Part shown: positions 11,785 through 43,465 of the stretch, piece by piece
Numbering within the stretch: the first letter of the stretch is position 1
How the letters are laid out: every line of letters begins with the position of its first letter
Source: an archaeon
GTDB taxonomy: Archaea > Nanobdellota > Nanobdellia > SCGC-AAA011-G17 > GW2011-AR17
Assembly (NCBI GenBank): GCA_018692925.1
Contig: JABHLH010000014.1
Span: 47,831-111,830 of the forward strand
Length of the DNA: 64,000 bases
Direction of reading: 5' to 3'
The notes under the pieces: model-generated
Told to the model about the DNA's origin: nothing
The model's database searches: none
What the model saw: the letters and a program-made list of their open reading frames with translations, nothing else
Made by a program: the position numbers and the translations under genes

Positions 11785-12531
11785 ATGGAAAGAAAAATTC
11801 AAGAGTATAGAGATTTATTAGAAAAAGATAAAGATTTAATTTGGTCGTATGTAGAATCTAGAGGAGAAGATGCTGAACTTAGAAAAAAAGTATTGTATTC
11901 CTTAGTAGATCCAGGAGATATATTAGAGACAAAAGATGGAATGCCAATACATTTAAAAGTATCATTAGAAAGTTTAAGTGATTCAGTTTTGTCTGTATTA
12001 AAAACATATGGTTCTCATAGAAAAAGCTCTATTGAAGAAAGAACTATTGGACATTATCTTGGTGGAGATTCAGGAGATATACCATACCTTGCCCCAGAGA
12101 GATTAGTAGATCGAATGGATTGGATAGATTATTTTGCTAGAAAAATGCAGAAAAAAGATTTAGTAGGGTATCGACCAATGTTTTTTGGAGGTCAAACTGA
12201 TGTTACTCTTGCAGATACTCCAAAATTTGTAAAATTTGCTAGACCATTAATTGAAAAATTAGATCAAGCAGAATTACGAAGAAGTGAAGGAGATATTGAT
12301 GGTGCAATTGAACTAAGAGAAGAAGTTGAAAAAGGAATGAGCAAAAGATGGATATTTTGGATGGAGAGGTTTAGAGTCGAAAAAGAAAAGATTCTAATTG
12401 ATAAAACAATGTCTAAAGAAGAAGTAAGAATGCGTTTCCATGATCAGCCAGTTAAATTTGAAACCCATAGTATTGAAGGTTTTGGATTTCTTGATTTGTA
12501 TGAAAGATTACTTCCTTATGTTTGGACATAA
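11785..12531 (+). CDS. Hypothetical helical protein
   Basis: 248 aa, unknown. It is charged and mostly helical, with tryptophans and aspartates spread through it (DLIWSYVES, RMDWIDYFARKM, KRWIFWMERF), and no signal or membrane segment. ACAGGAGAAAAG sits upstream, and a TATTTAAAG box at about 11718 implies a leader of about 40 nt. It stands between lrp and cysS in its own unit. Confidence 0.6.
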   Translation: MERKIQEYRDLLEKDKDLIWSYVESRGEDAELRKKVLYSLVDPGDILETKDGMPIHLKVSLESLSDSVLSVLKTYGSHRKSSIEERTIGHYLGGDSGDIPYLAPERLVDRMDWIDYFARKMQKKDLVGYRPMFFGGQTDVTLADTPKFVKFARPLIEKLDQAELRRSEGDIDGAIELREEVEKGMSKRWIFWMERFRVEKEKILIDKTMSKEEVRMRFHDQPVKFETHSIEGFGFLDLYERLLPYVWT

Positions 12532-12584
12532 TTTTTTTCTTTTTTTATACAAAAGTTTATATAATTCTAAGATAAAATAAATTT

Positions 12585-13988
12585 ATGCAATTGAAGCTCT
12601 ATAATACAATGTCTAAAGAAAAGGAAACATTTAGTCCCTTGAATAAAAGTGAAGCAAGAATTTATGCTTGTGGCCCGACCGTATACCATTACCAACACAT
12701 AGGAAATTTAAGGAACTATTTATTCAATGATATACTGAAAAGAGTTTTATTATTTAACAAATATAAAGTTAAACAAGTGATTAATATTACTGATGTTGGA
12801 CATTTAACTTCTGATGAAGATTCTGGTGAAGATAAAATGATTAAAGCACTGAAAAGAGAGAAGTTAGATATTTCTGAAGAATCATTGTTAACATTAGCAA
12901 AAAAATATGAAGCTGTATGGCAAAATGATATGGTGAAAATAAATATTTTACCTGCTGAAGTTTATTGTAAAGCAACTGAACATGTAAAAGATATGGTTGA
13001 AATGATTGAAAAAATTGAAAAGAATGGTTTTTCTTATGAAAGTGATTCTTGTGTATATTTTGATATTTCAAAGTTTAAAGATTATAATAAATTAGCTAGA
13101 TTAAAATTAGAAAATTTAGAAGCTGGAGCTAGAGTTGCAGTAGATAAAGAAAAAAAGAATCCAGGTGATTTTGTACTTTGGTTTAAAACTGTTGGTAAGC
13201 ATGAAAAACATATTATGCAATGGGATTCAAAATATGGTAAAGGGTTCCCTGGATGGCATATAGAATGTTCAGCAATGTCTGTGAAGTATTTAGGAGAACA
13301 ATTTGATATTCATACTGGTGGAATTGAACATGTTCCTGTACATCATACAAATGAAATTGCACAAACAGAAGCATCAACTGGAAAAAAACCTTGGGTTAAG
13401 TATTGGATGCATGGAGAACATTTAACTTTAGCAAAAGAAAAAATGAGTAAGTCATTAGGTAATGTATTCTTGTTAGATGATTTGATTAAGAAAGGTTTTG
13501 ATCCTTTAGCTTTTAGATATTTATGTTTAGGTAGTCATTATAGGAAACAAATGATCTTTACTTTAGAAAGTTTAGAAGGTGCACAGAATTCTTTGAATAA
13601 ATTAAGAAATAAAGTTTTAGAGTTAATGCAAAAAGATGAAGGTGAAAGAGCTGTTGAAGATTATATTGAAAGATTTCAAGATGCTATTAATGATGATTTG
13701 AATATGCCTAAAGCTTTAGCTGCAGTTTGGGATATGGTTAAAGATGAAGAAGTTAATAGTAAAGAGAGATATGATTCTTTGATGGAATTTGATAGAGTTT
13801 TAGGTTTAGGTTTAGAGGATATTAAAAGTTTAGAAATTCCAGAAGATGTTCAAAGATTGTTAGAAGAAAGAGAACATGCTAGATTGAATAAACATTGGAA
13901 TGATGCTGATGCTTTAAGAGATGAGATTAAGAAAAAAGGTTATATTATTGATGATGGTGTTAAGGGTCCTGTGTTGAAGAGAGTTTAA
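12585..13988 (+). CDS. cysS: Cysteinyl-tRNA synthetase
   Basis: 467-aa class I synthetase charging tRNA-Cys. The first zinc cysteine and the HIGH signature appear together as ACGPTVYHYQHIGNLR, the zinc-site GWHIECS and HTGGIEH segments follow, and KMSKSLGN marks the ATP loop. Length equals that of typical CysRS. The promoter box and ATG suggest a short leader or none. Confidence 0.96.
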   Translation: MQLKLYNTMSKEKETFSPLNKSEARIYACGPTVYHYQHIGNLRNYLFNDILKRVLLFNKYKVKQVINITDVGHLTSDEDSGEDKMIKALKREKLDISEESLLTLAKKYEAVWQNDMVKINILPAEVYCKATEHVKDMVEMIEKIEKNGFSYESDSCVYFDISKFKDYNKLARLKLENLEAGARVAVDKEKKNPGDFVLWFKTVGKHEKHIMQWDSKYGKGFPGWHIECSAMSVKYLGEQFDIHTGGIEHVPVHHTNEIAQTEASTGKKPWVKYWMHGEHLTLAKEKMSKSLGNVFLLDDLIKKGFDPLAFRYLCLGSHYRKQMIFTLESLEGAQNSLNKLRNKVLELMQKDEGERAVEDYIERFQDAINDDLNMPKALAAVWDMVKDEEVNSKERYDSLMEFDRVLGLGLEDIKSLEIPEDVQRLLEEREHARLNKHWNDADALRDEIKKKGYIIDDGVKGPVLKRV

Positions 13989-14024
13989 TTAGAGTTCTTT
14001 AATAGTGCAAGTTTAGGATTTATT

Positions 14025-16427
14025 TCAGGAGAATTCTTTAATTATTTGATTATATAATTTTTTTGCTTTTTGATAAGGTTTATGATTCTCTGAGAAACCT
14101 GCTTCTTTTCTAGCTTCTTCTATCCATTCCATATTACCAATAATATCAAGAAGATCATGATTAGAATTTTGAATTATATAAAAATCATTAAGAGATTTCC
14201 TATAATCTTTTGCTGCTTCAGTTTGTGAAAGATGATATTTTAAATATGAAGTTGAACTTGGTACTAGTCTTTCTTCTAAAGAAGATGTTTCTAATTGTTT
14301 TGGTTTGTGAGGTTTAATTCTTTCTGTAATGTATCTTGCTTGTGCGAGTCCACAGATTAATAATGTTTGTGAATTTTTTTTAATGTCATAAAATATAGAT
14401 CTTGGTATATATGTAAATTGATTCAAAATATTATTTTCATCATAAATAGGTTCTTCAATATTTGCATCAATATCTTTTCCAAAAGTTTCTATAACTCTCA
14501 AATCAGGTATTTCATTTGTTGATCTAATATGGTCTTTTACTAATACATCTATTTTGTCTACAACTTTTCTTTTGTAGTCGAGAAGATGTTTTATTCCCAT
14601 TCGAACTAAACCTATGTTAAATGCTAAGGAAAGAGTTCCTGAAATAGCTGCAGTTATTGGATCTCCACTAGCTATTGCTTCAAAATATGCATTATAAGCA
14701 AAAATATTTGTGGATACAGTTAAAAGTCCTAAACCTTTAAATTTTCTTGGATTCTTATAAAAATAATCCCTTTCTAAAACTGTTAATTCATTTTCGGTTA
14801 AATTTTCTCTAGTTACTAAATCTGTTAATTTTCCTGTTCTATGATTTTCAATATTATTGTTTTTTTCAATATCTCTTCTTAAATGTGAAAGATAACGATT
14901 CAAAGTAGTTTTTATCTCATTTGTTGTTTGTGAAGTTAAAGGTAATGAATTAAAAGCATCTTTTTCTTCTCCTAAGAAAAATGTATTATTATCAAAATAA
15001 AAAGCTATATCATTGAAAGAAGGGTGTTTGGTAGTTGTTAAATAATTTAGTACTTCTTCTGTTTGTATACTTTTTCTATAAGAATCTGTTCTTCTACTAC
15101 TTGAGATATAATCTCTAACTTCTTTTCTTAATCTTCTTTTTAATCTTTTTTCAGCTTTGTTTCTTGCTTTGATATTTTCTTCTGTTAATCCTGTTCCTTC
15201 AATATATAATAACATAGTACTTGTTTTTAAGAATTTGAAATTTGTAATCTCATATGGATTATTTACAGATAATTGATTATCCTCATAATTATTAGATCTA
15301 TTTATTTTTTGCAAATCATTTACTATCATTGGAATTAGATGGCTCTCAAATTGATCATAAAAATGTGAAAAACCTCTTTGTGTATTTTTAACTTCAAGAT
15401 CTAAATCTTCTTCTACTCTTTCTTCTAAAGGTTCTCCTAAAACTGTTATTTCTAAAGAATCTTCAAATGCAAATGGATCTAATGATTTTCTAACATCTAA
15501 AGCAGAAGAAAATAAAACTTCTTCATCAGGGTTAATCATTCTATTTAATGTTGGTCTTATAAATTCTGAAATCCATTCTGGTAATTCATAAGGTTTTCCA
15601 CCATACATTCTACTCCTATCTAATTCTTTGGGAATGTTTCCAAGTAAAGCTTCTGCTGCAGAAAAACCTAAAGAAAAAATATCATAAGCTGGAGATGTTT
15701 CACCGATTAATGCATTCGGATGAGCATATTTTTTACTTCCAACAGAAGTTAATTGTGTTGCACCACTATCTGCATCTTTTAGTGTGTCTAAGTCGATTAA
15801 ACTTACTTTACCATTTTTATCAATTATTATATGTCTTGGATTTACATCTCTGTGACAAACAACTCCAACTTCAGGGTGTTGAGATTCATCTTGTAAATAT
15901 TCTAAACATTCTAATGTTCCATTTAAAATTGGTTTTAATTCTTCTGGTGTTAAGTGACCTTTCTCTTTAATCATATCAGCTAAACTTGTACCTTGAACAT
16001 ATTCTCGAACAACAACAAATTGTCTTTCATCTTTTAGTTCAATTAAATCATGATATTCTGGAATTCCTGGATGATGAAGAGCTTTAGAAATTTCAATTCC
16101 TCTTGCTAAATTACTTTGTGCTCTTTTCCATTTTGCTAAATTAAAACTTCCTTCGAAAACTTTTCCAACATGTTTGTTACCCTCTTTATCTTCTAAAACT
16201 AAAGCAGTTGCTTGTTCACCCCAACCTAAATAATCAACAATTCTGTAATCGCCTACAGTTCCACTAGGGAATGCTTCTTTAATATCTTCATGAAGTTCTT
16301 GTTGTGGAGTTTGGATTAAATGATCTAAAGTTCTCACTGAAGCAGTAGCTGGAGCTTGTGCATTCTTTGCATCTCTTTGTCTTGCTGCCATAGCTTGTTG
16401 TTGTCGTTTGGATTGTTTAGCTGTCAT
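14025..16427 (-). CDS. Ser/Thr protein kinase with C-terminal membrane region
   Basis: 800 aa. Kinase domain at about residues 55-310: a glycine loop (LGWGEQATA), an ATP-lysine (HVGKVF), HRDVNPRHI in place of HRDLKPEN, and IDLDT in place of DFG. The catalytic-loop lysine is thus asparagine, so activity may be reduced or altered. The middle is rich in Arg/Lys (EKRLKRRLRKEVRDYISS). Two hydrophobic segments near residue 580-620 (TNIFAYNAYFEAIASG, AAISGTLSLAFNIGLV) suggest membrane anchoring. It is the last gene of a five-gene operon, overlapping the previous gene by 4 nt. Confidence 0.82.
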   Translation of the reverse strand: MTAKQSKRQQQAMAARQRDAKNAQAPATASVRTLDHLIQTPQQELHEDIKEAFPSGTVGDYRIVDYLGWGEQATALVLEDKEGNKHVGKVFEGSFNLAKWKRAQSNLARGIEISKALHHPGIPEYHDLIELKDERQFVVVREYVQGTSLADMIKEKGHLTPEELKPILNGTLECLEYLQDESQHPEVGVVCHRDVNPRHIIIDKNGKVSLIDLDTLKDADSGATQLTSVGSKKYAHPNALIGETSPAYDIFSLGFSAAEALLGNIPKELDRSRMYGGKPYELPEWISEFIRPTLNRMINPDEEVLFSSALDVRKSLDPFAFEDSLEITVLGEPLEERVEEDLDLEVKNTQRGFSHFYDQFESHLIPMIVNDLQKINRSNNYEDNQLSVNNPYEITNFKFLKTSTMLLYIEGTGLTEENIKARNKAEKRLKRRLRKEVRDYISSSRRTDSYRKSIQTEEVLNYLTTTKHPSFNDIAFYFDNNTFFLGEEKDAFNSLPLTSQTTNEIKTTLNRYLSHLRRDIEKNNNIENHRTGKLTDLVTRENLTENELTVLERDYFYKNPRKFKGLGLLTVSTNIFAYNAYFEAIASGDPITAAISGTLSLAFNIGLVRMGIKHLLDYKRKVVDKIDVLVKDHIRSTNEIPDLRVIETFGKDIDANIEEPIYDENNILNQFTYIPRSIFYDIKKNSQTLLICGLAQARYITERIKPHKPKQLETSSLEERLVPSSTSYLKYHLSQTEAAKDYRKSLNDFYIIQNSNHDLLDIIGNMEWIEEARKEAGFSENHKPYQKAKKLYNQIIKEFS

Positions 16428-17047
16428 TTTGAATTTCCTATTTGGACTAGCCCATACTCTTGATTATTTTCTCCCCAAAAAGCTTCGAATCTGTCTGCAA
16501 AACTCATACCTTGTATATAACCTAAACTTTTAGTTTTGTCTTCAAGAACACGATCTCCAAAAGATATACCTCTATCATTACCACATGTCATTTGAAGAAA
16601 ATATCCTGTTTTTAATGGTAAATCTTTCATCCATTCTTTTAAATCAATTGTGGTAACTACTCCATCTTTTGCTGACCATGAAGATCTAGAACCTTGTCCA
16701 ACAACTACAATACTTTGATAGGTATCATTTTCTAATACCTCTCTTAAATCTCTGCTTGTAGCGTTATGTTTAAAATCAAGTCTAATATCTCTTTCAGTAA
16801 AAAAATCTGAAATTTTCCCTTTATTTCCTAAAGTAAGATTTGCGAATTCAATTAAAGTTGGTTCATAAATTAAAGCAATTGCTTTTTCATTGCCACTAGT
16901 TTCTTTTATATTTTTTTGTGATTGATATGTGTTATATAATAATCCTGGAAAAGCTAATGGCCCAAGTTGTAATAAACTTAAAGGATTTAATCCTAGAACA
17001 AATTCGGAATATATTTCTAATTTAATTTTTCGAGGATATTCTATCAT
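16424..17047 (-). CDS. Caspase-fold-like protein in the kinase operon
   Basis: 207 aa, no certain family. The centre reads SIVVVGQGSRSSW and later YFLQMTCGNDRG. This matches the spacing of clan CD (caspase/CHAT-like) peptidases, where a His-Gly-containing strand end and a Cys strand end form the dyad; here the His position is Gln, so it may be an inactive member. The same VVxG(H/Q)G...W and FLxxTCG pair occurs in the protein at 58901. It overlaps both kinase genes by 4 nt. Function unknown. Confidence 0.45.
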   Translation of the reverse strand: MIEYPRKIKLEIYSEFVLGLNPLSLLQLGPLAFPGLLYNTYQSQKNIKETSGNEKAIALIYEPTLIEFANLTLGNKGKISDFFTERDIRLDFKHNATSRDLREVLENDTYQSIVVVGQGSRSSWSAKDGVVTTIDLKEWMKDLPLKTGYFLQMTCGNDRGISFGDRVLEDKTKSLGYIQGMSFADRFEAFWGENNQEYGLVQIGNSK

Positions 17048-19128
17048 TGTCTCACCTTCTGTGCCATTCTAGCTTTTCTTAATCTTTCTGTGTCTTGTTC
17101 TGTAGCTTTTCTTAATCTTTTCTTTTCTTGTTCAAAATTATTAGTTGTAGTTCTTACTGGTCCTGTAACTTCTACTGGATCAAAAGTAATTTCTGGTGTA
17201 GAATCCGAAAAAGTTAACTTTGGTGTAGGATCAGAAACTACTATTGGTTCTTGTGTAGAAACTTTTGTTTGATCTTCAAAAAATTCAGAAGTATCTTCAA
17301 GTTCTGTTTTAGAATCTGGTAACATTGCTCTTAATGAATTATATAATTTAGATGGATCTCTTTTAAATTTTTTAAAAGTTCTTTTTACTTCTTTAGGAAA
17401 ACCTTCAAAGTTAAAATTATCAAGTTCTTCTTTTGTGCTTACTCCTGTAGATAGTACATAGTTATCCTGGTGGTTAACTTGTTTTGAATATGAAAAAATA
17501 AATTGCTGCCCATTTGTAGAGATATTTAGATATCTTCCAAGATTATTATATCTTTCAATTTTTATTCTAAAAAGATCATTTGATTTTATTTCAAAATCTA
17601 TTTTAAATTTTTTATAATTTTTATTGTAACTTTCTAAAATAAAATCATGATATGCTTGACTATCAAAATTTTCTCCTAATCTAACTCCTTCTGGTAACTT
17701 TGCAGTTTCAATTCTATCTTCTAAAGATTTAATTTTTTTCCTTCTTTTGAGATAATTTGATATTGTGAATTTAGTATGTATTGCAGTTAATGTTAATAAT
17801 GCAGCAAATGGAATAATTACATCATCTACACTATTATATAAATAATAACCAGCTGTAGAAATAGCTCCTGTTAAACCTAATTGTATTGGAAGTTTTTTTC
17901 TATCTCTAGATCTTTCTTTTATTAAATCTAATCTTTGTTCTTCTAATTTTCTTACTTCAGTACCGTATTGTTCTTCGGTGTCAAGTAAGTGTAAATCTCT
18001 TTTGACTTGTTTATATTGTATTTTAAACTCCCCGAATATTGCTTTATCTATTATACTTAAACCTCCAACAATTCCTCCCGTAACTAAACTTGCTTTTAAC
18101 AAACTATGTTCAACAGAATAAACTATTGGGAATGATACTAAAGAGAAAATTTGTAATAAATTAAGCATAGAGATGGGAAAATTTAAAGCTTTTAATTTAC
18201 TTTCTTTCTTTTTAAGATCATTTCTTAGTGATGCATAATCTTTTCCTTCAACTACAGCTATTTCTTTTATTTCTTCATCAACTATTTCTTCTAAATTAAA
18301 ATCAAAATCATTTCTTATGTCTATTGCAGTATGATATCTTTGTTTTTGTTCAGGATGAACCATTTTTTCAATTACATTTCTAAATTCTTCTGGTATCCAT
18401 TCTGGCATTTTATATGGATTACTACCTCTAAATCTACTATCACTTAGTTCATTTGGTATTTCTCCAAGTAATGCTTCTGTTGCAGTAAATCCTAAAGCAT
18501 AATAATCCCCGTCTGGAGAAGTACTTCCAAGTAAAGCTTCTGGACTCTGGTATGATTTTGTTCCTGCTGCTGTGTATCTAGTTGTTTGATTAGAAGTTGA
18601 TTTTGATGTGTCTAAATCAATTAATGTAACATTGCCTTCATCATCAACAATAATGTGTTCTGGTTTTATATCTCTGTGGCAAACTGTTTTTACTTTTGGA
18701 TGTTGTGATTCATCATGTAAATATTCTAAAGCTTCTACAGTTTTACCAATAATTGGAGCTAATTCTTCTGGAGATATTGTTCCATCTTCTTCAATAATTT
18801 CTTTTAATGATCTTCCTTTTGCATATTCTTTTACAACTACAAACATACTTTGATCTGGAATATCAATAATTTCTTTTACGGTTTGAATACTAGGATGGTC
18901 TAAATGTTGTGAAATATCAATTCCCCTTTTTAGATCTTTTAATTCTTCAATATATGGTGTTAAACTTAATCTTCTTTGGATTACTTTTCCTGTGTATGTT
19001 TTTCCATCACCATTTTCTAATTGTAAAACAAGTCCTTGTCCACCTTCTCCGATTACTCCTGTAATATTATAATGGTTAATAGTTTGATCTTGAAACATTG
19101 CAGTTATTTGTGTTGGTAAAGTTGTCAT
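17044..19128 (-). CDS. Membrane-linked Ser/Thr protein kinase
   Basis: 694 aa. Kinase domain at about residues 18-275 with a good glycine loop (GVIGEGGQG), ATP-lysine (TGKVIQ), a canonical HRDIKPEH catalytic loop, DLD in place of DFG, and a GTKSYQSPEAL activation/APE-like segment. Hydrophobic segments at about 315-360 and 410-445 are probable membrane helices. The rest includes a basic region and a Pro/Thr-rich tail ending in Arg/Lys-rich helices. Catalytic residues look complete, unlike the partner kinase downstream. Overlaps of 4 nt on both sides show a tightly coupled operon. Confidence 0.88.
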   Translation of the reverse strand: MTTLPTQITAMFQDQTINHYNITGVIGEGGQGLVLQLENGDGKTYTGKVIQRRLSLTPYIEELKDLKRGIDISQHLDHPSIQTVKEIIDIPDQSMFVVVKEYAKGRSLKEIIEEDGTISPEELAPIIGKTVEALEYLHDESQHPKVKTVCHRDIKPEHIIVDDEGNVTLIDLDTSKSTSNQTTRYTAAGTKSYQSPEALLGSTSPDGDYYALGFTATEALLGEIPNELSDSRFRGSNPYKMPEWIPEEFRNVIEKMVHPEQKQRYHTAIDIRNDFDFNLEEIVDEEIKEIAVVEGKDYASLRNDLKKKESKLKALNFPISMLNLLQIFSLVSFPIVYSVEHSLLKASLVTGGIVGGLSIIDKAIFGEFKIQYKQVKRDLHLLDTEEQYGTEVRKLEEQRLDLIKERSRDRKKLPIQLGLTGAISTAGYYLYNSVDDVIIPFAALLTLTAIHTKFTISNYLKRRKKIKSLEDRIETAKLPEGVRLGENFDSQAYHDFILESYNKNYKKFKIDFEIKSNDLFRIKIERYNNLGRYLNISTNGQQFIFSYSKQVNHQDNYVLSTGVSTKEELDNFNFEGFPKEVKRTFKKFKRDPSKLYNSLRAMLPDSKTELEDTSEFFEDQTKVSTQEPIVVSDPTPKLTFSDSTPEITFDPVEVTGPVRTTTNNFEQEKKRLRKATEQDTERLRKARMAQKVRQ

Positions 19129-19754
19129 TCTAACTTTACCTCCAAGTTTGTAATTTGTTCATATACATTTGAAACAAAATTATTTGGTACATGATCATAA
19201 ATATTTTCCATTAAATTTAAAGATAAGAATGCTAAACCTGCAGCAATAGCTAATTTATTCAATGGTGTTTGTTTTTTTAAAAAATTAGGATATGATTTTC
19301 TTTCACATTTTTCTAAACTTGTTAAATCTCTAAATGCATCTACAGCATAACCCATTGGGATCCCATTAGCTGCTCCTAAAACTACAGAACATGCAGAACC
19401 AATTGCAATTTTTCCCCAATCAGTTTCACCTGAGTAGTAATATAATGGTGGTGAAATAATTATATTAAAAACACCAGTATAAGCCATATCATGAAGTGTT
19501 TGTTTTTTTTCAGAACTTTGATCTGTGATTTTAAAAGCATATCTCCATAAATCTCTTCCTCTTCCATAAACAGTACCTAAACCTAGATAAGCTAATTTTG
19601 ATGCATTTATTCTAGTATCTAATGAAACTTCATCAGTCATTCCAGCAACACCAACTTCATATAATGCAAAGAATGGATTGGATTCAATTAACAAAGCAGT
19701 AGTATCTGTTAAATGATATCTCAATTGTTTTGAAAGTTTGGAGATTTTAATCAT
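19125..19754 (-). CDS. AlaE-like (L-alanine exporter family) membrane protein
   Basis: 209 aa. The run LTDTTALL...GMTDEVSLDTRINASK...YGRGRDLWRYAF...HDMAYTGVFNIIISPPLYYYSGETDW...GAANGIPMGYAVDAFRDL follows the pattern I recall for bacterial AlaE (conserved DT, GM-E-S-R, YG-RD, GxxxGxxxD-R). AlaE exports L-alanine. There are about four membrane helices, and a C-terminal extension of about 50 residues adds a further one. Placement ahead of two kinases suggests a transported or sensed small molecule; that is inference. Confidence 0.6.
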   Translation of the reverse strand: MIKISKLSKQLRYHLTDTTALLIESNPFFALYEVGVAGMTDEVSLDTRINASKLAYLGLGTVYGRGRDLWRYAFKITDQSSEKKQTLHDMAYTGVFNIIISPPLYYYSGETDWGKIAIGSACSVVLGAANGIPMGYAVDAFRDLTSLEKCERKSYPNFLKKQTPLNKLAIAAGLAFLSLNLMENIYDHVPNNFVSNVYEQITNLEVKLE

Positions 19755-19887
19755 TTTCTTCCTCCAATAACTTATTTAATGCAAATTCTACTACATGACT
19801 TCTATTCCTGAAAATCTTTTTTTTTAGCTCTTTTTCTATCTTTTTTAGAACTTCTTTATCCACTGTAACTGAGAGTTTTTGCTTCAT
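19747..19887 (-). CDS. Small ribbon-helix-helix (CopG-like) regulator
   Basis: 46-aa ORF absent from the supplied track. It begins MKQKLSVTVDKEVLKKIE, has a basic turn (KKIFRNRSHVVEFALNKLL) and ends EEEND. A beta strand, two helices and the (N)RSHVVE turn are typical of ribbon-helix-helix DNA-binding proteins. It overlaps the AlaE-like gene by 8 nt and follows a TATA box 27 nt upstream. It is therefore the first gene of the kinase operon and probably its autoregulator. Confidence 0.78.
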   Translation of the reverse strand: MKQKLSVTVDKEVLKKIEKELKKKIFRNRSHVVEFALNKLLEEEND

Positions 19888-19913
19888 CCTATTAAATCCG
19901 ATTTTAGGCGATG

Positions 19914-19920
19914 TTTATAA
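19914..19920 (-). promoter_or_regulatory. TATA box of the kinase operon
   Basis: TTATAAA on the minus strand, 27 nt before the ATG at 19887. It gives a leaderless start for the ribbon-helix-helix gene and is the only clear promoter for the five overlapping genes. Confidence 0.55.
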
Positions 19921-19937
19921 GACTTTTTGTTTAGAAT

Positions 19938-21647
19938 TTAGCTAGTACAAGCCCTTACAAAACCTAAAAACATAGGAGAAGGATCATCTAATCTTGATTT
20001 GAATTCTGGATGTCCTTGAGTTGCTAAGAAAAATTTATGTGAAGGTAATTCTATGAACTCCATTAATTTCATATTATCAGATTCTCTAATGTGATGTCCT
20101 GAGAAAACCATGCCTTTTTCTTCAAACCTTTCAACATATTTAGGAGAAACTTCCCATCTGTGTCTGTGTCTCTCTAAAATTACATTATCAGTAGTTTCTA
20201 AATTTCCAAGTCTTTCACTAGAAGTTTTATTAATTATCTCTTGATCTTTTTCTAATCTTTGAGTCTCTTCATAAAGCTTGTATGTTTGTGAATCCTTTTT
20301 CAGAATTGCAGCATAAGCACCTAGTCTCATTGTCCCACCATAATCTTTGTTCTTCATTAACTCTTTTTGTGCAGGTAAAATGTCTATAACAGGATGTGGT
20401 GTGTCTGGATTTACTTCAGATGTGTTTGCATTTTCTAAATTTAAAATATTTCTTGCAAATTCTATTAAAGCCATTTGCATTCCATAACAGATACCTAAGT
20501 AAGGAATATTATTTTCTCTAGCAAATTGTGCTGCCTTAATTTTTCCTTCAACACCTGATGATCCAAAACCACCTGGAACTAAAATTCCTTGGTATTCTTT
20601 TAATTTTTCTAACTCTGAAGGATTTTTTTCTAAATCTTTTGCATTTACCCAAATAATTTCTACTTTTACATTTAAGTTTGCACCAGCATGAATTAATGCT
20701 TGGTTAATTGATACATAAGAATCAGTTAAAGTGAAATTTCCAACATCAACATATTTTCCAACAATTGCAATTTTAATCTTTTTAGCTGGGTTTACAATAT
20801 TGCTTACTAACTTTTCCCACTCTTCCCAATTAGGATTTGCTTTTGGATATAAATTACATTTTTTTAATATTTTTAGACCTACATTTTCTTTTTCTAAGTC
20901 TAATGGTACCCTATAAATAGTGTCAATATCTGGTTCTGAAATAATTGATTCACTTGGAATGTTTGCTGAAGATTCTATTTTTCTTCTTCGAATATCATCC
21001 AAAGGAAATGGTCCTCTACAGAAAATTAAATCTGGAAAAATACCTGCAGCTTCACTTAACAATTTAATCGCTTGTTGAGTTGGCTTTGTTTTCATTTCTT
21101 CCATGTGTCTTGGAACAAGAAGGTAAGTAACAAGAACATAAAGAACATTTTCTTTTCCAAACTTTCTTTCTAAAGCTTTCATAGCAAATAAGAAAGGAAC
21201 ATTTTCATAATCTCCAATAGTACCACCAACTTCAATAATTGCAAAATCAAATCCCTTTGAAGATTCTAGTACCCTTTTTTGTATTTCTTCAGGAATGTGA
21301 GGAATAATTTGTACAGTTTTACCAAGATATTCACCTTTTCTTTCTTTTTCAATAACAGTTCTATAAACTTGGCCTGTTGTAATGTTATGTGATTTTGGAA
21401 TGTTTTGATCTAAGAATCTTTCATAGTTACCTAAGTCTTGGTCAATTTCTCCACCATCATCAGTAACCCAGACTTCTCCATGTTCAGTTGGTCTTAAGGT
21501 ACCAGCATCGCAGTTCATGTATGGATCAATTTTAATTGCTGTAACAGAATAGCCATATTTTTGAAGAATTTTACCTATAGAAGCTGATGAGACACCTTTG
21601 CCAACACCACTAATAACACCACCTACAACAACTATGAATTTAGTCAT
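19938..21647 (-). CDS. pyrG: CTP synthase
   Basis: 569 aa, full length. It amidates UTP to CTP using glutamine. The synthetase domain (VVGGVISGVGKGVSSASIG, then IDPYMNCDAGT) occupies the first half and the class I glutamine amidotransferase domain the second half, with the catalytic cysteine in GICYGMQMA and the His-Glu pair in GHPEFKS. It is monocistronic by spacing. Confidence 0.97.
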   Translation of the reverse strand: MTKFIVVVGGVISGVGKGVSSASIGKILQKYGYSVTAIKIDPYMNCDAGTLRPTEHGEVWVTDDGGEIDQDLGNYERFLDQNIPKSHNITTGQVYRTVIEKERKGEYLGKTVQIIPHIPEEIQKRVLESSKGFDFAIIEVGGTIGDYENVPFLFAMKALERKFGKENVLYVLVTYLLVPRHMEEMKTKPTQQAIKLLSEAAGIFPDLIFCRGPFPLDDIRRRKIESSANIPSESIISEPDIDTIYRVPLDLEKENVGLKILKKCNLYPKANPNWEEWEKLVSNIVNPAKKIKIAIVGKYVDVGNFTLTDSYVSINQALIHAGANLNVKVEIIWVNAKDLEKNPSELEKLKEYQGILVPGGFGSSGVEGKIKAAQFARENNIPYLGICYGMQMALIEFARNILNLENANTSEVNPDTPHPVIDILPAQKELMKNKDYGGTMRLGAYAAILKKDSQTYKLYEETQRLEKDQEIINKTSSERLGNLETTDNVILERHRHRWEVSPKYVERFEEKGMVFSGHHIRESDNMKLMEFIELPSHKFFLATQGHPEFKSRLDDPSPMFLGFVRACTS

Positions 21648-21734
21648 GTATTAAGATATGGGAGTAAAGAGTTTTTAAAGAAAGTTGTTTTGGGTTGTAT
21701 ATTTTTGAGAAAGTTTATTAACTAGTTATTAAAA

Positions 21735-22298
21735 ATGAGGTTTATGGCTGAAGATATTGTTGAATTAAGGAGAAGAGTGATTTCTGATTTAAATGATTCA
21801 GATTATGAATTTGGTGGATATGTACTAGGAAGGACATCAAGTTTGTATAGAGCTGTTAGTGAGTTTTCAAATGGATTAGAAAAAAATGAAGGATTTAAAT
21901 TATTAAGTTCAGCTTTAATTTTTTATAACCCTGAGAAATTTGATATATTAAAAACTGAATTTAATTATAGTCAAAGAAATATTGATGATATTAGAGCTAT
22001 TACTGAAAGTGCTGTATATACTCAATCCCCTTCTAATGGAACTGAAAGATTATTTTGTGATGCTGTTGCTTCAGAATTATCAAGAGAAGATTATTTTATG
22101 TATAATGGAATTAAAAGAAAAATGCTCTCTAATGAAGAAATAGTATTTTCAAATGTTCAATGGTTTAGTCTTTTAAGAGATCTATTTTTGGATCATGAGT
22201 ATTTTACAAGATTTGGGAAAACTCGTTTTGAAGAAGGGAAAAAAATAAACTTAGCAAAAATATTAACAAAACTTAGACAGGAAGAATTAAAAAGTTGA
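21735..22298 (+). CDS. Hypothetical protein
   Basis: 187 aa, unknown. The ATG at 21735 or a second in-frame ATG at 21744 (MAEDIVELRRRV) could be the start. Acidic, helical and free of signal or membrane segments; two copies of an aromatic pattern (FEFGGYVLG-like and YFTRFGKTRF) are the only marks. It ends 18 nt before the UDG gene, so the two are probably co-transcribed. Confidence 0.55.
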   Translation: MRFMAEDIVELRRRVISDLNDSDYEFGGYVLGRTSSLYRAVSEFSNGLEKNEGFKLLSSALIFYNPEKFDILKTEFNYSQRNIDDIRAITESAVYTQSPSNGTERLFCDAVASELSREDYFMYNGIKRKMLSNEEIVFSNVQWFSLLRDLFLDHEYFTRFGKTRFEEGKKINLAKILTKLRQEELKS

Positions 22299-33965: not shown

Positions 33966-36284
33966 TTATTTTGCTGCTATTTGCTCAGCTTTTCTTCTCA
34001 GAGGACTATCTTGATTAAAAGAAGTATCTGGAATTAATGGACTTGGTTGTCTTCTATAAAAATAATTGCTTAATGTCCTTTGAATATTTCTTTTTTCAGA
34101 ATATTCTAATCTTCCTCTAAATTGAATTGGGTTTTCTGCTATTCTTTCAACAGGAAGCCTATAAGCTGCAACTAAACATCTTTTTTGATTTATGTATAAT
34201 CTTTCATCTAATAGACCTACAATATCATACATTTGTTCTACTATCATTTCTGGACTTAAAGGCATGTTTTCTCCTCGAGCTTGCTCTTCTGCCATAATGT
34301 CTGCATAAGGTGAAAATGGTGCAGCATTAATTGACATGAATGTTATAAATCTTGGTTGAACAGTATTTAGTAATTTTGCTGTCTGAACAACATGGTCTTC
34401 ATAATGTTTTAATCCACCAAGACCAGTCATAATCATTGTTGAAATTTGAATCTTACTTTGAACAGCTTTTTTTCCAGCTTTTTCCATTCTGTCATAATTT
34501 ATATTCTTGTTTACATATTGAAGAACTTGATCTGAACCAGTTTCAATACCCCAGAAAAGCATATTTAATCCGTGCTCATAAAGAGTATTCATTTCCTTAA
34601 TTGATTTTTTCTCTATACCTTCAGTTCTTGTGAAAGCAGCAATTCTTCTTATATTATTTCTATTATAAGGTGTATATTGTTGATTATCGAAAGTACTTCT
34701 AGCAGCATCAACATATTGTAATAATTTATCTGTTGGCATTGCAAAAATATCACCACCACCTAGAAAAAGTCTTTGAATATTTCCAAGATCCCCATCTAAT
34801 TTTTTTCTAACCTCTGCAATATGTTCTTGAAATGCTTGAAATCTTTTTATGTGGAATCTTGCTTGACCATATTCAGTACAGTATGTACACTTTGCATATT
34901 GACAACCATTTCCTACTTCAAGTTTTAATACTCTATGTAGTTCTTCTGATGGAGGTGAAAAAGGTTCTGCAGTATATATATCTCTATCGTGATATAATAA
35001 AGCTCTATCAAAAGAAAATTTAACTCCTAGTTTACCGCCGTCTCTTTTTTCTCTATTTATCCAAGAGTCAACAGTTTTTAGTAAAATTTCTCCAGTTATA
35101 TCCTCTAACTCATTTGTTTGTTCTGCTTTTCTAAAAACAACACTATATTCTTTTTTTAATAAAATTGATAAAGTATCCATTTGTTCTTTTGCTTTATCGT
35201 AATTATTTTCTAAAGCTAATCTTGTTGCTTCTAATACAATCTCTTTTAATTTTTCTTCATTAAAATTTTCAGTTTTATAATCTATTTTTTCATTTGCTTT
35301 ATGAGTAATAGATCTAACTGCTAGTACTATTAATTTTTCATATGGAATATTTACTTCATCTGGAAAATCTGGAATTTCATAATCAAAATTGTTATCAGCA
35401 AGAATATCTTCTAGTTGATGATTAGAGAGAGAATATTTCTTTTTTAATATTTTTGTTACTTCCTTTTTTTCATGATCATGATCAAAATTTATTCTATTTT
35501 TAGCCGAATCTATACTTAATTCTAAAATTAAATTTTCAATACCTTTTCTTAAATCTGTTTCACCAGTTGTTGTTAATGTATCATAAAATCTATTTTTTCC
35601 AGTTTGTTTAAGTTCATCTGGGTGAAAGTTCCAAAGAGTATTTTCAAATATAAGGACATATTTTTCCTCTGTAGGAGACGCAATTAGCTCACCTTCAGTT
35701 CCTAAACTATAATCTTCTTCATTACCACCATAATAATATACTTCTTCTAATGGATCATCAAAATCAAATCCTTCAAAACCAGTAATTTCAAGAATGTCAC
35801 CTAATTTTAAATCTGCTCTAATTGGTGTTGAAATGCTTTCGTATACTTTAGTTACTAATTGAGTTCTATATGTATCTAGATCTGTAAAATCTATATTTGG
35901 AATCTGGTCAAGATTGATATCAATTCTTTTTGCTAATTTTGAGAATGCATTATTAATATCTTTTTCATCAGTTGTTGGATTTTCTAATTCTAATTTTCTT
36001 TTTTCTTCAATTTCATTAAGTTTTATTTCTAGTTGAGAAAAATCTCCTTTAATTTCTTCTTTTACTGCATTTAAAATATCAGTTTTAGATGGTAATGTGG
36101 AAAGAAATTGTTCATAATCATCTTTATTATGAATACCTTTAATATTTTGACGTGCTGTTTTTATTATTTCTGCATCTTTTATTTGTGAAGATAATAATGC
36201 TAGTTGGTCCTCTGCTGAGAGTTGATAAATTGTTGCAAATAAGTTTGTAAAAACTTCTTCTTCTGTAGCTTTTATTTGTTTCAT
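33966..36284 (-). CDS. Radical SAM protein, last gene of the Ubl cluster
   Basis: 772 aa. About 450 N-terminal residues are mostly helical and unassigned. The radical SAM core then starts with CQYAKCTYC (CX4CX2C, a spacing known in Elp3- and COG1032-type enzymes), followed by GGGDIFAMP, ETGSDQVL and a Tyr/Arg-rich tail. There is no visible B12 domain. It starts 4 nt after the 840-aa gene, so it is a true operon member. A role in radical modification or sulfur insertion linked to the modifier is inference. Confidence 0.8.
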   Translation of the reverse strand: MKQIKATEEEVFTNLFATIYQLSAEDQLALLSSQIKDAEIIKTARQNIKGIHNKDDYEQFLSTLPSKTDILNAVKEEIKGDFSQLEIKLNEIEEKRKLELENPTTDEKDINNAFSKLAKRIDINLDQIPNIDFTDLDTYRTQLVTKVYESISTPIRADLKLGDILEITGFEGFDFDDPLEEVYYYGGNEEDYSLGTEGELIASPTEEKYVLIFENTLWNFHPDELKQTGKNRFYDTLTTTGETDLRKGIENLILELSIDSAKNRINFDHDHEKKEVTKILKKKYSLSNHQLEDILADNNFDYEIPDFPDEVNIPYEKLIVLAVRSITHKANEKIDYKTENFNEEKLKEIVLEATRLALENNYDKAKEQMDTLSILLKKEYSVVFRKAEQTNELEDITGEILLKTVDSWINREKRDGGKLGVKFSFDRALLYHDRDIYTAEPFSPPSEELHRVLKLEVGNGCQYAKCTYCTEYGQARFHIKRFQAFQEHIAEVRKKLDGDLGNIQRLFLGGGDIFAMPTDKLLQYVDAARSTFDNQQYTPYNRNNIRRIAAFTRTEGIEKKSIKEMNTLYEHGLNMLFWGIETGSDQVLQYVNKNINYDRMEKAGKKAVQSKIQISTMIMTGLGGLKHYEDHVVQTAKLLNTVQPRFITFMSINAAPFSPYADIMAEEQARGENMPLSPEMIVEQMYDIVGLLDERLYINQKRCLVAAYRLPVERIAENPIQFRGRLEYSEKRNIQRTLSNYFYRRQPSPLIPDTSFNQDSPLRRKAEQIAAK

Positions 36285-36288
36285 TTTT

Positions 36289-38811
36289 TTAGTTATTTAA
36301 TATGTCTATAACATATTGTCTTTCTCCTAAACTTTCTGTAAACTCTTGACTAATTTTTTCTTTAGAAATTCCAAGTGATAATAATGTTGTTATATAATCT
36401 CGAGTTTTTGTAATTATTTTTTTTCTCTTATCATTTATGATTTGGTCATATTCTTCAAGAACTGTTTCAAGATCGCCATTTATTTGCTCTTTTATTTCTT
36501 CTATAGCTTGGACATAATTTTCAGGATATTCAACCAGTTCTAAATTTCTCATATATGATCTGCCATTTTTCCCATCACCATATTTTATTCTCATAATTGG
36601 ATCAGTTCCTTCAGGTTCTGAGACTATAGTTATAGGGCCATATTTATTATAAGGTTCATTTCCAGTACCGATTTTATGTCTTACTAGATCTCCTTCTTTT
36701 AATTTAATATTAGGGAGATCAAAAGCTGGAACCATAGGAGTAACATCAAAAGTTACACCTCTTAGATTACCATTAATATTTAGAATGTGGTTACCATGTT
36801 CATTTTTCTCATAATATCTAACAATAGTACCTTTTGGATATTCTCTATTATAATCTTCTTCTAAGATAACTAAAGTACCTTTAGGAATTTTTACTTTTGC
36901 TAAAGTCTTTTTTATGAATCCTGCTTCTTCATAAAGATGAGGAATAATTCTATCAAATATATTCTTTCTAAAGTTGTCAAATTTGTTTGCATCAAGATCG
37001 TTTATTTTTAATTCTTTTAAATCTACTTTTAATTCTAATTTGTCTACTAATTTTTCAACAAGTCCTAATGCTAATTTGGAATAATTTATTTGTTCTTCAT
37101 AGGATATTAATTCTGAAAAGAGATTTTTACGAGGAACATATTGATTAATTTCTCTATCATTTATACTTATTTCTCCAAGATTTGATCTTAAAAAGAAACT
37201 GATTATACTTTCTTCTAAATCCATTGACCTTAAATCAGAAATAACTCTTTGAATAGTTGTTTTTTTATTTGTTTTTGCATTCTCAAATTTGGATTCTTCT
37301 TCTTGAATTATTCTTTCTAGTTGAGTTTTAATTTGTTCTGGATTTATTCCATCTGTTTCTTCTTCTGTTTCTTCTTCTGTTTCTTCTTCTGTTTTTATAT
37401 ATTCAATTTCACTTTCTTCTAAATGCCATCTTTTACCATTATTTAATCTTGCAATAATATGATTTCCTCTTTTTTCAATTATTTCTCCAGTTGTGCCTAT
37501 AGCAACTTCATTAATGTGGCCACCGTGCATATATGCTCTTCCATTTTCTCCTTTTCCTGCTTTTATTATTTTAATTTGTTCACCTGTACCATGTATATTA
37601 ATTGCTTCAAGTAGTTCTAAATCTTTTAAATCTATTTTAGTGTAACTTGCATAATTTTTCCTTGGTCTTGGACAAAAATCTAAATCATAATCAAGGTAAC
37701 CAGTTGTTCCAATAGGAAATCCTTTAACCTTTATTTTGGTTCTTACATAATTCTTTTTTCCAGGAGTTTTTTCTTCTGAAGGTTTATAAAAACGATTTAA
37801 GGAAAGAATTTCATCTTTTAACCAATTAAATCCTCTATCGCTTCGAATTCTTCTCTCTTCACTATGAAAAAAGAATAAACCTAATTCTTCTTCTATTTTT
37901 TTAACAGTAGAATTTCTTAAATCACTATATGTAGAACCTACTTCATGATAAATTTTTAATTCTTCAGAAATCATTAATGCAATACCTAATCTAGATCTGT
38001 AAATATTTTGATATTTACTTAAAATGGTATCAAAATCTTCTTCTTTAAAATTAGGATCATTGTGAATAGCTAATGCAACTAAAGATTGTTCCATTAATTC
38101 TTTTGGTTCTAAATCTGCTGAATGTATTTTTGAAGATAAATATGGACTAACTGTTTTTTTCACATCAACAGCGAAATTTAATTTTGCTAATTCTTCAAGA
38201 GTAGTTATTTTTTCTAAATTTATTAAATCATTAGGAATTACTTCTTCTAAAACCTTTGAAGCTAATAATGTTTCTGGATCTAATCCAATATAATCAAAAG
38301 GTAATTCTCTTGGATGTGGATCTGGTACTGCAATAAATTCTGGTTCTTCTTCTGTAATTCCAGTATCTTGAATTTCAGGTAATTCAAATGAAATCATTTT
38401 ATGAAGTCTTTCTGCAAATGCTTTTCCTGTTATTTCTAAATATTTTTCTAAAGATTCAACTTTCTTAATTAATTGTGGGGAATTATTTTCTAAAGCAGAT
38501 TGAGTTAAAATTAATGAGACAGTTTCGGAAGGATTTATTCCATGAGAATAAAAATTACTAACATATACATTTGCAATTTCTTGAGAAGGTGAGAGATGAT
38601 TTAATAATGTGGATGTAATTGGATCTATTCCATTATCTAATTCTAGTTCTATTCTTCTAGGTTTTACAAATCTTGAAACTCTATGAGTATTTGTTGTTGC
38701 TTGAGGAGTCCAATCTAGATGTTCTTCTACTACTTCTTCTTCTAATGAAGCTTCTAATAATGCATCTAAATCAAAATCATCTTCATCATCATACATTTCA
38801 TCTTTTGTCAT
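36289..38811 (-). CDS. Large protein with SH3-like repeats, Ubl cluster
   Basis: 840 aa, no clear family. The N terminus is acidic (YDDEDDFDLDALLEASLEEE). The middle and C terminus hold SH3/KOW-like barrel segments, two of which share a GxGxNGRxYM core (GKGENGRAYMHGG, GDGKNGRSYMRNL) followed by strand-rich stretches with glycine turns. Such barrels occur in E3-like and substrate-binding proteins. There is no RING-like cysteine cluster. A scaffold or substrate-recognition role is inference. Confidence 0.65.
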   Translation of the reverse strand: MTKDEMYDDEDDFDLDALLEASLEEEVVEEHLDWTPQATTNTHRVSRFVKPRRIELELDNGIDPITSTLLNHLSPSQEIANVYVSNFYSHGINPSETVSLILTQSALENNSPQLIKKVESLEKYLEITGKAFAERLHKMISFELPEIQDTGITEEEPEFIAVPDPHPRELPFDYIGLDPETLLASKVLEEVIPNDLINLEKITTLEELAKLNFAVDVKKTVSPYLSSKIHSADLEPKELMEQSLVALAIHNDPNFKEEDFDTILSKYQNIYRSRLGIALMISEELKIYHEVGSTYSDLRNSTVKKIEEELGLFFFHSEERRIRSDRGFNWLKDEILSLNRFYKPSEEKTPGKKNYVRTKIKVKGFPIGTTGYLDYDLDFCPRPRKNYASYTKIDLKDLELLEAINIHGTGEQIKIIKAGKGENGRAYMHGGHINEVAIGTTGEIIEKRGNHIIARLNNGKRWHLEESEIEYIKTEEETEEETEEETDGINPEQIKTQLERIIQEEESKFENAKTNKKTTIQRVISDLRSMDLEESIISFFLRSNLGEISINDREINQYVPRKNLFSELISYEEQINYSKLALGLVEKLVDKLELKVDLKELKINDLDANKFDNFRKNIFDRIIPHLYEEAGFIKKTLAKVKIPKGTLVILEEDYNREYPKGTIVRYYEKNEHGNHILNINGNLRGVTFDVTPMVPAFDLPNIKLKEGDLVRHKIGTGNEPYNKYGPITIVSEPEGTDPIMRIKYGDGKNGRSYMRNLELVEYPENYVQAIEEIKEQINGDLETVLEEYDQIINDKRKKIITKTRDYITTLLSLGISKEKISQEFTESLGERQYVIDILNN

Positions 38812-38820
38812 TTGTTTCTC

Positions 38821-40281
38821 CTAATCTGTTGTTTCAGTAGTTGCAGCAAAAGCCTTAACTTGTTCATCGGTTACAATTAAATCTGGTACTGGTTTTGAAT
38901 AACAATCACAAGTATCTTTTAATGGATTTGTTCCAAATCTTTTTGATAAATCTGATCTATAAGTTTGTTCACCATTGAAAGGTTCACCAAATTTTTCAGA
39001 TTCAAAAATAGTATAAGTATCTAATACTGCGCATACAGCTGCAATTGCATTACTCATTACAACTGAAGGATTGGGATTTAATGCACAACTTGCTCTTCTA
39101 ATCATTTCTTCTCTTCTACCCTCTTCATAAATATTAAATAAGTGATCCATACATTGTGTTTTTCCTTCTAAATGAACATCCCATCTTGCACTATTTGGTA
39201 ATGCTCCTGCACTGATCAAAGGTGTTTTTGTATTAATTCCGTAAGCTGAATTTACTGCTCTTGTATACCTATTGTCAACAAAATCAAAAACTAAATCATA
39301 TTTTTCTTCAGTTGTAAAACCAGGTAAGATTTTTTGATTGAATCCAGTTGATGCAGTTTTTCCATGACTCATTGCTAGAATTTTTTCTGCAATATGTAAT
39401 GCTTTTTCTTTATCTACACCATCATAAGCTAAAACTTGTCTGTTAATATTGTGAGATTCAAAAATATCGTAATCAAAAACATCTAATCTTTCAAAACCCA
39501 TCATTGAAGCAGCAATTGCACCCCAACATCCTAAAGCTCCTCCACCTAAGAAAGCAACTTTTAATTTGGAATAAATTTCGGAATCAGGTCTTTCTAATTC
39601 TTCACCTTTTTCAGGGAAACCAAATCTATAGCCAGAACCTAATCTGTACCTAATTGGATTTTTTAAGAAGTTTTGATCTTTGAAAATTAATTTTTTTACT
39701 TCTTCTGTAATAATACCAGATAAAGCTAATGCCATTAATGGATCCTGTTCTTGAGCTTCGAAGTTAGGCATTAAAAAATGTGGGTTGTTTGTATTTGGAT
39801 CACATAATATCAATTTTGTGTAAGCCCATTTTGAAGATGTGCTTAAAACAGGAATATTTTTTTCTCTTCCATAAGCAATAGCTAACTGTTTTGAAGAAAT
39901 TGAATTAGTTGCATCAATAATAACATCAGTACCTTTTAGAGCTAATTGATCTAATCTTGATTCAAGATCAGTTGCATAGCCTTCAACATTGATTTGTCTA
40001 TTAATTTGAGATAATAAGCCTGGAAGTGATTTTGCTTTTGGACCTTTTGCAAATGGCATATCTAAGAAAAGTTCATTTTCTTTTGCATCTTGACCATCAA
40101 TTAAAACAATATTTCCAACACCAAGTGATGCTAGACATAAAGAAGCATAAATTCCCTGAGGACCTAAACCAATTACTGCAACTCTTGCATTATTTAATTT
40201 AGCTTGACCGTCGTCTCCCCATAAAAGAGTTTGCCTTTTATAACGATCTTCCTCAATAATTATTGTTTCTTCTTTTGTCAT
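38821..40281 (-). CDS. Tandem-domain E1-like (ThiF/Uba-type) activating enzyme
   Basis: 486 aa with two Rossmann units. Unit 1 (about residues 14-200) starts RYKRQTLLWGDDGQAKL, has GLGPQG, but lacks the active DxD...NRQ. Unit 2 (about 238-430) has GGGALG and FDYDIFESHNINRQ, the ATP/adenylation signature. Candidate thioester or zinc cysteines are C377 and C399, plus CDC near the end. An inactive plus active pair resembles eukaryotic-type E1. It adenylates the modifier's C-terminal glycine by family analogy. It lies 1 nt from the JAMM gene. Confidence 0.88.
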   Translation of the reverse strand: MTKEETIIIEEDRYKRQTLLWGDDGQAKLNNARVAVIGLGPQGIYASLCLASLGVGNIVLIDGQDAKENELFLDMPFAKGPKAKSLPGLLSQINRQINVEGYATDLESRLDQLALKGTDVIIDATNSISSKQLAIAYGREKNIPVLSTSSKWAYTKLILCDPNTNNPHFLMPNFEAQEQDPLMALALSGIITEEVKKLIFKDQNFLKNPIRYRLGSGYRFGFPEKGEELERPDSEIYSKLKVAFLGGGALGCWGAIAASMMGFERLDVFDYDIFESHNINRQVLAYDGVDKEKALHIAEKILAMSHGKTASTGFNQKILPGFTTEEKYDLVFDFVDNRYTRAVNSAYGINTKTPLISAGALPNSARWDVHLEGKTQCMDHLFNIYEEGRREEMIRRASCALNPNPSVVMSNAIAAVCAVLDTYTIFESEKFGEPFNGEQTYRSDLSKRFGTNPLKDTCDCYSKPVPDLIVTDEQVKAFAATTETTD

Positions 40282-40282
40282 T

Positions 40283-42049: not shown

Positions 42050-42051
42050 TT

Positions 42052-43461
42052 TTATTCTTCTCCAGTATATCCTCTTTCTACTACTTCAACAATCATGTAA
42101 CCTTGTTCATGTGCTTGTTTTCTTGTTAGTGATCTTTCATTACCACCAAGTATATCATCTACAGGATCACCAAAAAATCTATGGTTTGGTCCAGGGTGAC
42201 TCTTTAAACTTCCAGGATTTAATGGTTCCATTAAAGCTGTTGCAGCATCACTAATTTTTCTTACTAAATCTATTTTTGTGTGACCATAATCTCCAGAATC
42301 TCTACTTAAATTACAAATACTAGAATTTCCACTTGTTCTATTTCTTAAACAAGGATGGTGTTCTCTAGGTTCAACAATAATTGGACTATCAGAAGAATAT
42401 ATTTGTCCTCTACTCCAATTAAGTCTTATTGCTACTTTTGTTGAATCATAAGGCCAAAACCTATTAACATCTCTACTATCTTGAGTTGCAAACTTTGGAA
42501 CTTGAGTGTAAACATATAAATCCCCACTTTTTATAAAAAATCCACATAAATTATCTAAATTTAATTCATCTAATTCTGCTAATTTTCTCATATATTGTTT
42601 TGAAGCATCTTTTTCTCTTTTTCTATTATTGATTTCATCAAATGCTGTTTGAGTTCTTTCTAATGCAGCAATTCTCCAAATATTTTTTCTTTTATCTAAT
42701 AATCTTTCTGATAAATCACTCACATGCATATCTGCTCTAGCATGCATCCTATAACTTTCATTATTAACATGGATTATACTTTCGTCTTCTTTGGGATTCT
42801 CAATTTTTATTAAGGAATAAACTAAATTGTTTGAAATAAATAGAGGTGTATCAATAGAGAACTCATAAAGAGAACCTACATGTTCATTATAATCAAAACC
42901 AATCTCAGATTCTAGATTATTTTTTTCTTCTCTTAAAAGAGATAATCTCATTTCCTCAGCTAAATTTATTTCTTCCTCATTACCTTCGACTTCACCAAAA
43001 CGACTTTTTAATATTTCTTGGATCTCTTTTTTTGCTCTTTCTTGAGGTGTAATTTCATCTACTAAATCATCATCATCAGAAATTAATGAAAGTAATAAAT
43101 TATCATCATCATCATATTTTTTACTTAATAAGAAAGGTAAAAGTTCTGACATTGCATAATCTAATGATTTTAATCTTGATCCCTCTCTATCAATTTCATC
43201 TTGTCTTTTTATTTTTTGATCAATTCTAGCTTTAATATATTCTGTACAATAAGTTTCAATTCTTTCAGTTTGTAATTTTTCACTTAAGTTTTCTAATTCT
43301 AAAAAAGTTAAAGAAGGAATTAAATCAAATCTAATTCCACCAGTTCTTAAAAAATCTGGATTTGTATTAGTTTCTGCAAGACTATATGCTCTTCCATCTA
43401 ATAAAATAAATGAAGCCTGCCTTTCAGCAAGCATATCCAAAAAGCTTTCTAGTCCTGACAT
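42052..43461 (-). CDS. E2-like (UBC-fold) conjugating enzyme
   Basis: 469 aa. Near residue 369 comes HPCLRNRTSGNSSICNL, which matches the E2 pattern HPN...G.ICL, placing the candidate catalytic cysteine at about C383. It is followed by a helix KIDLVRKISDAATALMEPLNP like the E2 helix after the active site (SKVLLSICSLLCDPNP in UbcH5). The strand region VAIRLNWSRGQIYSSDSP precedes it. The first 350 residues are helical and carry the acidic motif YDDDDNLLLSLISDDDD. Assignment is by motif; a structure prediction should decide. Confidence 0.72.
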   Translation of the reverse strand: MSGLESFLDMLAERQASFILLDGRAYSLAETNTNPDFLRTGGIRFDLIPSLTFLELENLSEKLQTERIETYCTEYIKARIDQKIKRQDEIDREGSRLKSLDYAMSELLPFLLSKKYDDDDNLLLSLISDDDDLVDEITPQERAKKEIQEILKSRFGEVEGNEEEINLAEEMRLSLLREEKNNLESEIGFDYNEHVGSLYEFSIDTPLFISNNLVYSLIKIENPKEDESIIHVNNESYRMHARADMHVSDLSERLLDKRKNIWRIAALERTQTAFDEINNRKREKDASKQYMRKLAELDELNLDNLCGFFIKSGDLYVYTQVPKFATQDSRDVNRFWPYDSTKVAIRLNWSRGQIYSSDSPIIVEPREHHPCLRNRTSGNSSICNLSRDSGDYGHTKIDLVRKISDAATALMEPLNPGSLKSHPGPNHRFFGDPVDDILGGNERSLTRKQAHEQGYMIVEVVERGYTGEE

Positions 43462-43465
43462 GTTT

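Follow-up and report, generated by a model that had tools for sequence, protein, structure and literature searches.

A lineage-specific archaeal operon joining a ribbon-helix-helix regulator to an AlaE-like protein, Hanks-type kinases and a predicted pseudo-caspase: a possible signalling cassette

Protein kinases such as PknB, StkP, MAD6 and PD-T4-6, the AlaE exporters (TC 2.A.104, PF06610), and the caspases and CHAT peptidases of clan CD are the described systems closest to the locus reported here, every part of which belongs to a known family or fold. Also close are the MoxR-vWA and GTPase-centric conflict systems, in which caspase-like domains occur together with kinases and modular effectors (PMC7159879). 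Some operons headed by the same type of ribbon-helix-helix (RHH) regulator resemble them in carrying weakly matching AAA ATPases; in contrast, no vWA, STAND, VMAP or EAD component is identified in the present operon. The papers searched describe no system of this composition, and none of them links RHH to Woesearchaeota or pseudocaspases to archaea.

The locus lies in a 64,000-nucleotide stretch of archaeal DNA (the window) from a genome of 0.985 Mb. An archaeal 16S rRNA model matches there with 1422.8 bits but also responds to bacteria, so the archaeal assignment is additionally supported by archaeal-type genes, a class III-like pilin and TATA boxes; size and gene content suggest a place among the DPANN. 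The locus consists of the following features (window coordinates):

13992-19936, no strand assigned: whole inserted segment, absent in the sister species G001 between cysS and pyrG (flank alignment)
19888-19921, minus strand: promoter region (from the sequence)
19747-19887, minus strand: RHH (CopG-type) regulator, 46 aa, first gene (PF01402)
19125-19754, minus strand: AlaE-like (L-alanine exporter family) membrane protein, 209 aa (PF06610 below cut-off, aligned R45/D84)
17044-19128, minus strand: kinase 1, membrane Hanks-type Ser/Thr protein kinase, 694 aa (PF00069)
16424-17047, minus strand: predicted caspase-fold protein with a degenerate dyad (pseudo-caspase), 207 aa (AlphaFold and Foldseek)
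14025-16427, minus strand: kinase 2, degenerate Hanks-type kinase, possibly a pseudokinase, 800 aa (PF00069 and motifs)

All five open reading frames (14025-19887, minus strand) are present as an earlier note on this DNA had described them, and the overlaps of 4 or 8 nt that it gave are borne out: in operon order from the RHH gene they measure 8, 4, 4 and 4 nt. Four overlaps in succession exceed the local habit, since in the window 10 of 40 pairs of neighbouring genes on one strand, this operon's own pairs included, overlap or abut within 30 nt. Shine-Dalgarno-like elements (GGAGG, GGAGG, AGGTGA, and AGGA) stand at the internal starts, and a TATA-like TTATAAA (19914-19920) is located 27-34 nt (about 30) upstream of the RHH ATG. 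The single shared promoter that had been proposed is thus supported by a TATA-type element before the RHH gene and overlapping genes downstream; as expected, the pattern of promoter and internal Shine-Dalgarno elements fits a single leaderless-start archaeal transcript. GC and GC3 of the operon resemble the rest of the window, and its composition is not foreign. Elsewhere in the window, a run of large genes (33966-47331, minus strand) encodes a ThiF/E1-like protein (PF00899, 3.7e-42), a protein that is JAB-like by eye, a cysteine-desulfurase-like protein, and a radical SAM protein; the cluster looks like ubiquitin-like or sulfur-transfer conjugation.

The first gene is an RHH protein, as had been assumed: PF01402 (RHH_1) matches over the whole domain, residues 5-43 of 46, with 21.5 bits against a cut-off of 20.5. 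After the TATA-like element comes a near-palindrome, CCTATTAAATCCGATTTTAGG (19888-19908), whose sequence makes it a candidate operator for the RHH protein. In genome G015, a homologous RHH gene (59% identical to the window RHH, RHH_1 score of 27.8 bits) is preceded by a TATA element at equal distance and by a comparable element, CGGATAAAGTAGG. Among 25 non-redundant promoters of RHH homologs, TATAAA is present in 20 and the word CTACTT/AAGTAG in 13, compared with 2.7 expected; the best AT-rich word in shuffled promoters already reaches 12-17 by chance, so the evidence for an operator word is its own excess and not its rank. The window promoter contains this word in degenerate form only.

The AlaE-like protein matches PF06610 with E=1.6e-4 and 22.2 bits, under the cut-off of 25, while five of eight members of its family match at E<=0.01 (best 5.2e-10). 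Homology extends across the four-TM core, and R48 and D89 align with R45 and D84 of E. coli AlaE, both conserved; in the E. coli protein, these residues are reported to be essential for efflux (PMC7176098). The family matches and the aligned residues together uphold the AlaE relationship suggested earlier. The protein differs from AlaE in its length (209 vs 149 aa), an added C-terminal segment, weak hydropathy, and its archaeal origin, AlaE being reported in Bacteria only (PMC7176098). AlaE homologs are found in 15 of 99 genomes, and wherever the neighbourhood was fetched, none adjoins a kinase.

Both kinases are Hanks-type, matching PF00069 (kinase 1, 9.5e-35; kinase 2, 1.8e-24) and retaining the catalytic Lys, HRD Asp, and DFG Asp. 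In kinase 1, the kinase domain (residues ~20-266; Lys48, HRD153, Asp171 as the DFG Asp, and SPE present) is followed by membrane segments with hydropathy peaks of 1.5-1.7 at residues 319-360 and 438-456. Kinase 2 is its paralog (45% identity across residues 7-281), with the catalytic loop HRDVN and APE altered to HPN, and hence without the HRDxK Lys and the APE Glu; these motifs mark it as apparently degenerate and possibly a pseudokinase. Two membrane kinases had been claimed. The kinase assignment stands for both and the membrane segments are clear in the 694-aa protein, but the 800-aa protein has only one borderline hydropathy peak (1.49). The two proteins share with PknB, StkP, MAD6, and PD-T4-6 the kinase domain and the HRD loop, and kinase 1 also the membrane segments. 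In contrast to those enzymes, both kinases have His instead of the catalytic-loop Asn and DLD instead of DFG; as all five aligned relatives carry the Asn-to-His change and DLD or DMD, this is a lineage trait. A PASTA or other known sensor domain is absent here, as are MADS partner genes, unlike in PknB, StkP, and the defence kinases. Close relatives of kinase 1 occur only in the host genome (G000), G011, and G015 among 378 genomes of the class, and a sample of the phylum adds one further kinase, distant and lone. A majority of the family members have no RHH gene at the operon head. The host genome encodes a third paralogous membrane kinase (L015, G000:C6, 8956-10611, 551 aa), which stands alone without RHH. 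Kinase searches returned no match among plasmids and generic kinases only among viral contigs; the genome_contigs set, scanned with the kinase and with the caspase-like protein, contained no relatives.

The 207-aa protein has no match in Pfam, and profile libraries gave nothing convincing. Iteration through relatives delineates a family present in 17 of the 378 class genomes, with the signature GHG...W.A.D...TCG, in which GHG and TCG end two core strands. A first AlphaFold model built on 6 sequences (pLDDT 51) gave no caspase match; this was resolved with a 19-sequence alignment, for which the core exceeds a pLDDT of 90. The best 50 Foldseek matches listed against the PDB are all caspases or SAVED-CHAT proteins (best E 2.1e-4, probability ~1), with low TM-scores of 0.27-0.38 by query length. 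The model thus predicts the clan CD caspase-hemoglobinase fold, in agreement with the caspase-like fold anticipated for this gene. The catalytic His-Cys dyad is incomplete: Cys155 is kept, and Gln118 occupies the His position. The dyad His is retained in 16 of 19 family members; the remaining three, a small degenerate subgroup, carry Gln (GQG in the window protein), Pro (GPS in G084), and Tyr (GYG in G227). Owing to the Gln at the catalytic His position, the window protein is probably not a protease, and it is best described as a probable pseudo-caspase, caspase-fold yet probably dead as an enzyme. It shares with clan CD the predicted fold and the family signature GHG...TCG, and differs, besides its GQG, in an N-terminal hydrophobic anchor and the lack of a Pfam match. 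Phages searched with the protein gave no match, and no caspase-like homolog lies beside a kinase wherever the neighbourhood was fetched. A second family member in the host genome is encoded within the window (58901-59962, plus strand, 353 aa); it has an intact GHG...TCG and stands alone (profile E 1.5e-48, with the protein itself included in the profile). In G084 (L010, 302-1894), a fully degenerate caspase-like protein adjoins a Peptidase_C13 (legumain-type) gene (E 1.4e-7), so that a pseudo-enzyme and an apparently genuine clan CD protein are neighbours.

G001, the sister species, whose PyrG is 94% identical and whose flanks are about 88% identical at the DNA level, has a clean, exact empty site. 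In end-to-end alignments, window positions 12584-13991 match 3365-1927 of G001 L060, and 19937-21868 match 1934-3; there, cysS and pyrG stand tail to tail with overlapping stops, and the whole of 13992-19936 is absent in a single piece. No terminal repeats were found at either end of the insert at the length searched, and the resemblance of TTTAATTAG and TTTAGCTAG at the junctions was judged unconvincing as a repeat. In G006 and G007 the flanks are not adjacent or not covered, so that insertion versus loss in G001 is not polarised beyond the genus. The 248-aa gene beside cysS (11834-12583) is also replaced in G001, by two others (L060 3355-5210); the cysS neighbourhood therefore turns over on both sides. 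No other genome searched contained the five-gene set. Co-occurrence of these genes in relatives, on which the earlier note had made its reading depend, is accordingly contradicted: AlaE and caspase-like homologs lie away from kinases wherever their surroundings were checked, and the G001 site is empty.

The RHH gene itself is more widespread: 33 of the archaeal order's 103 genomes encode a homolog of the window type, in most cases at the start of an operon. Thirty loci were examined, comprising three fusions to nucleotidyltransferase-like domains and 27 stand-alone genes. In 26 of these 27, the next ORF of at least 60 aa starts between 29 nt before and 1 base after the RHH stop, the yardstick being the 10 of 40 co-directional window neighbours that are equally close; the figure is indicative, since the script favoured the longest ORF near the RHH stop and some loci are near-duplicates. 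The first cargo genes encode kinases, an APH-like kinase, an SNF2-type helicase, a weak HATPase, and AAA-like ATPases, and the cargo also includes tandem HEXXH or ParB-like paralogs. The sole recurring association is that of RHH with a kinase (G015 and G004), the partners differing. In G015, the RHH gene is followed by four small paralogs, ParB-like by eye, and then by the kinase, all abutting or overlapping; the four tandem paralogs (L045, G015:C34, 1416-3083) carry a GGHHRA motif reminiscent of ParB-like domains, and the two that were scanned have no Pfam match. In G004, the RHH gene shares 4 nt with the gene of a less closely related membrane kinase, after which four HEXXH paralogs (AHEFGH), PALP, and GNAT-like genes follow, overlapping or nearly so (L122, G004:C20, 1470-8825). 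Three further RHH-led loci (L129, L130, and L131 in G018, G049, and G059) combine an AAA-like ATPase with several paralogous proteins of 250-310 aa that share short N-terminal repeats, IGDK.KS.FDPDLAREIN. Taken together, these loci suggest that RHH-led cassettes with exchangeable cargo may form one class.

The sole functional link among the five parts is their predicted co-transcription, and an assembly of unrelated genes under one promoter in an AT-rich, gene-dense genome, with no joint function, would be consistent with a five-gene set confined to the host genome and with AlaE and caspase-like homologs that stand alone elsewhere. Such a chance origin nevertheless appears unlikely, given paralogous kinases on both sides of the caspase-like gene, the 4-nt overlaps, the recurrence of RHH with a kinase in two relatives, and the presence or absence of the entire set as a single block. 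Block-wise presence or absence would also suit a toxin-antitoxin pair of RHH and membrane protein, with the remaining genes as cargo, as would a small RHH gene overlapping the next one and a second gene encoding a small membrane protein. This arrangement is very improbable: the RHH protein, its domain filling residues 5-43 of 46, combines no C-terminal toxin-binding tail with the DNA-binding domain as a type II antitoxin does, the second genes of RHH-led operons encode non-homologous large proteins, and in the present operon that position is taken by an AlaE homolog whose transport residues are conserved.

An antiviral or anti-element defence system, in which kinase 1 would sense infection and phosphorylate host targets or the caspase-like partner so that growth is halted, in the manner of defence kinases, seems doubtful to us. 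The lineage-specific insertion agrees with it, prokaryotic conflict systems include caspase-fold proteins and kinases (PMC7159879), and the kinase domains score highest against the MAD6 and PD-T4-6 models. However, the MAD6 score of 96.7 against a curated cut-off of 460 bits reflects kinase-domain similarity, and a defence reading drawn from the PADLOC kinase scores was dropped as too generic. With the kinase under the cut-off and no partner among the other operon genes matching in PADLOC, the operon does not belong to MADS or PD-T4-6; the caspase-like protein, moreover, is predicted to be inactive.

The reading we prefer, and to which we give an even chance, is that the locus constitutes a lineage-specific accessory signalling cassette with a small RHH autorepressor at its head and a putative use in stress or conflict. 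It builds on what is established: adjacent overlapping genes, one promoter, the empty site, the fold and motif identities, and RHH-headed operons with other cargo. The RHH dimer would bind its own promoter and keep transcript levels down until repression is lifted by a signal, and translational coupling would then yield the cassette proteins together. Kinase 1, membrane-anchored and with its catalytic residues in place, is presumably an active signalling enzyme. The pseudo-caspase, with its N-terminal hydrophobic segment, might serve as a non-cleaving, membrane-side binding partner or substrate, and kinase 2, as a degenerate paralog, might act as a modulator. The AlaE-like protein could export a small amino acid or peptide as an output or relief valve; its gene may also be a passenger of the cassette. 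A signalling or conflict role of the five-gene set is thus possible, and a stress or conflict response would be its most likely use, given the patchy occurrence of the cassette and its interchangeable cargo.

More tentatively, small, closely related RHH genes may typically lead accessory cassettes with a single promoter throughout the order; the same promoter-RHH unit, overlapping the gene that follows it, would then regulate cargo that is rapidly exchanged. The membrane kinases, pseudo-caspases, AAA ATPases, and tandem metallopeptidase-like paralogs that they carry might then represent an undescribed class of archaeal signalling or conflict islands, a proposal we consider somewhat less likely than not. 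Signalling and defence in small, mostly uncultured archaea are almost unknown. If the proposal is true, the 46-aa RHH and its promoter would provide a search handle for accessory modules in these organisms, and the locus would add an archaeal case of a caspase-fold family, one branch of which is probably inactivated and is encoded between two kinase genes.
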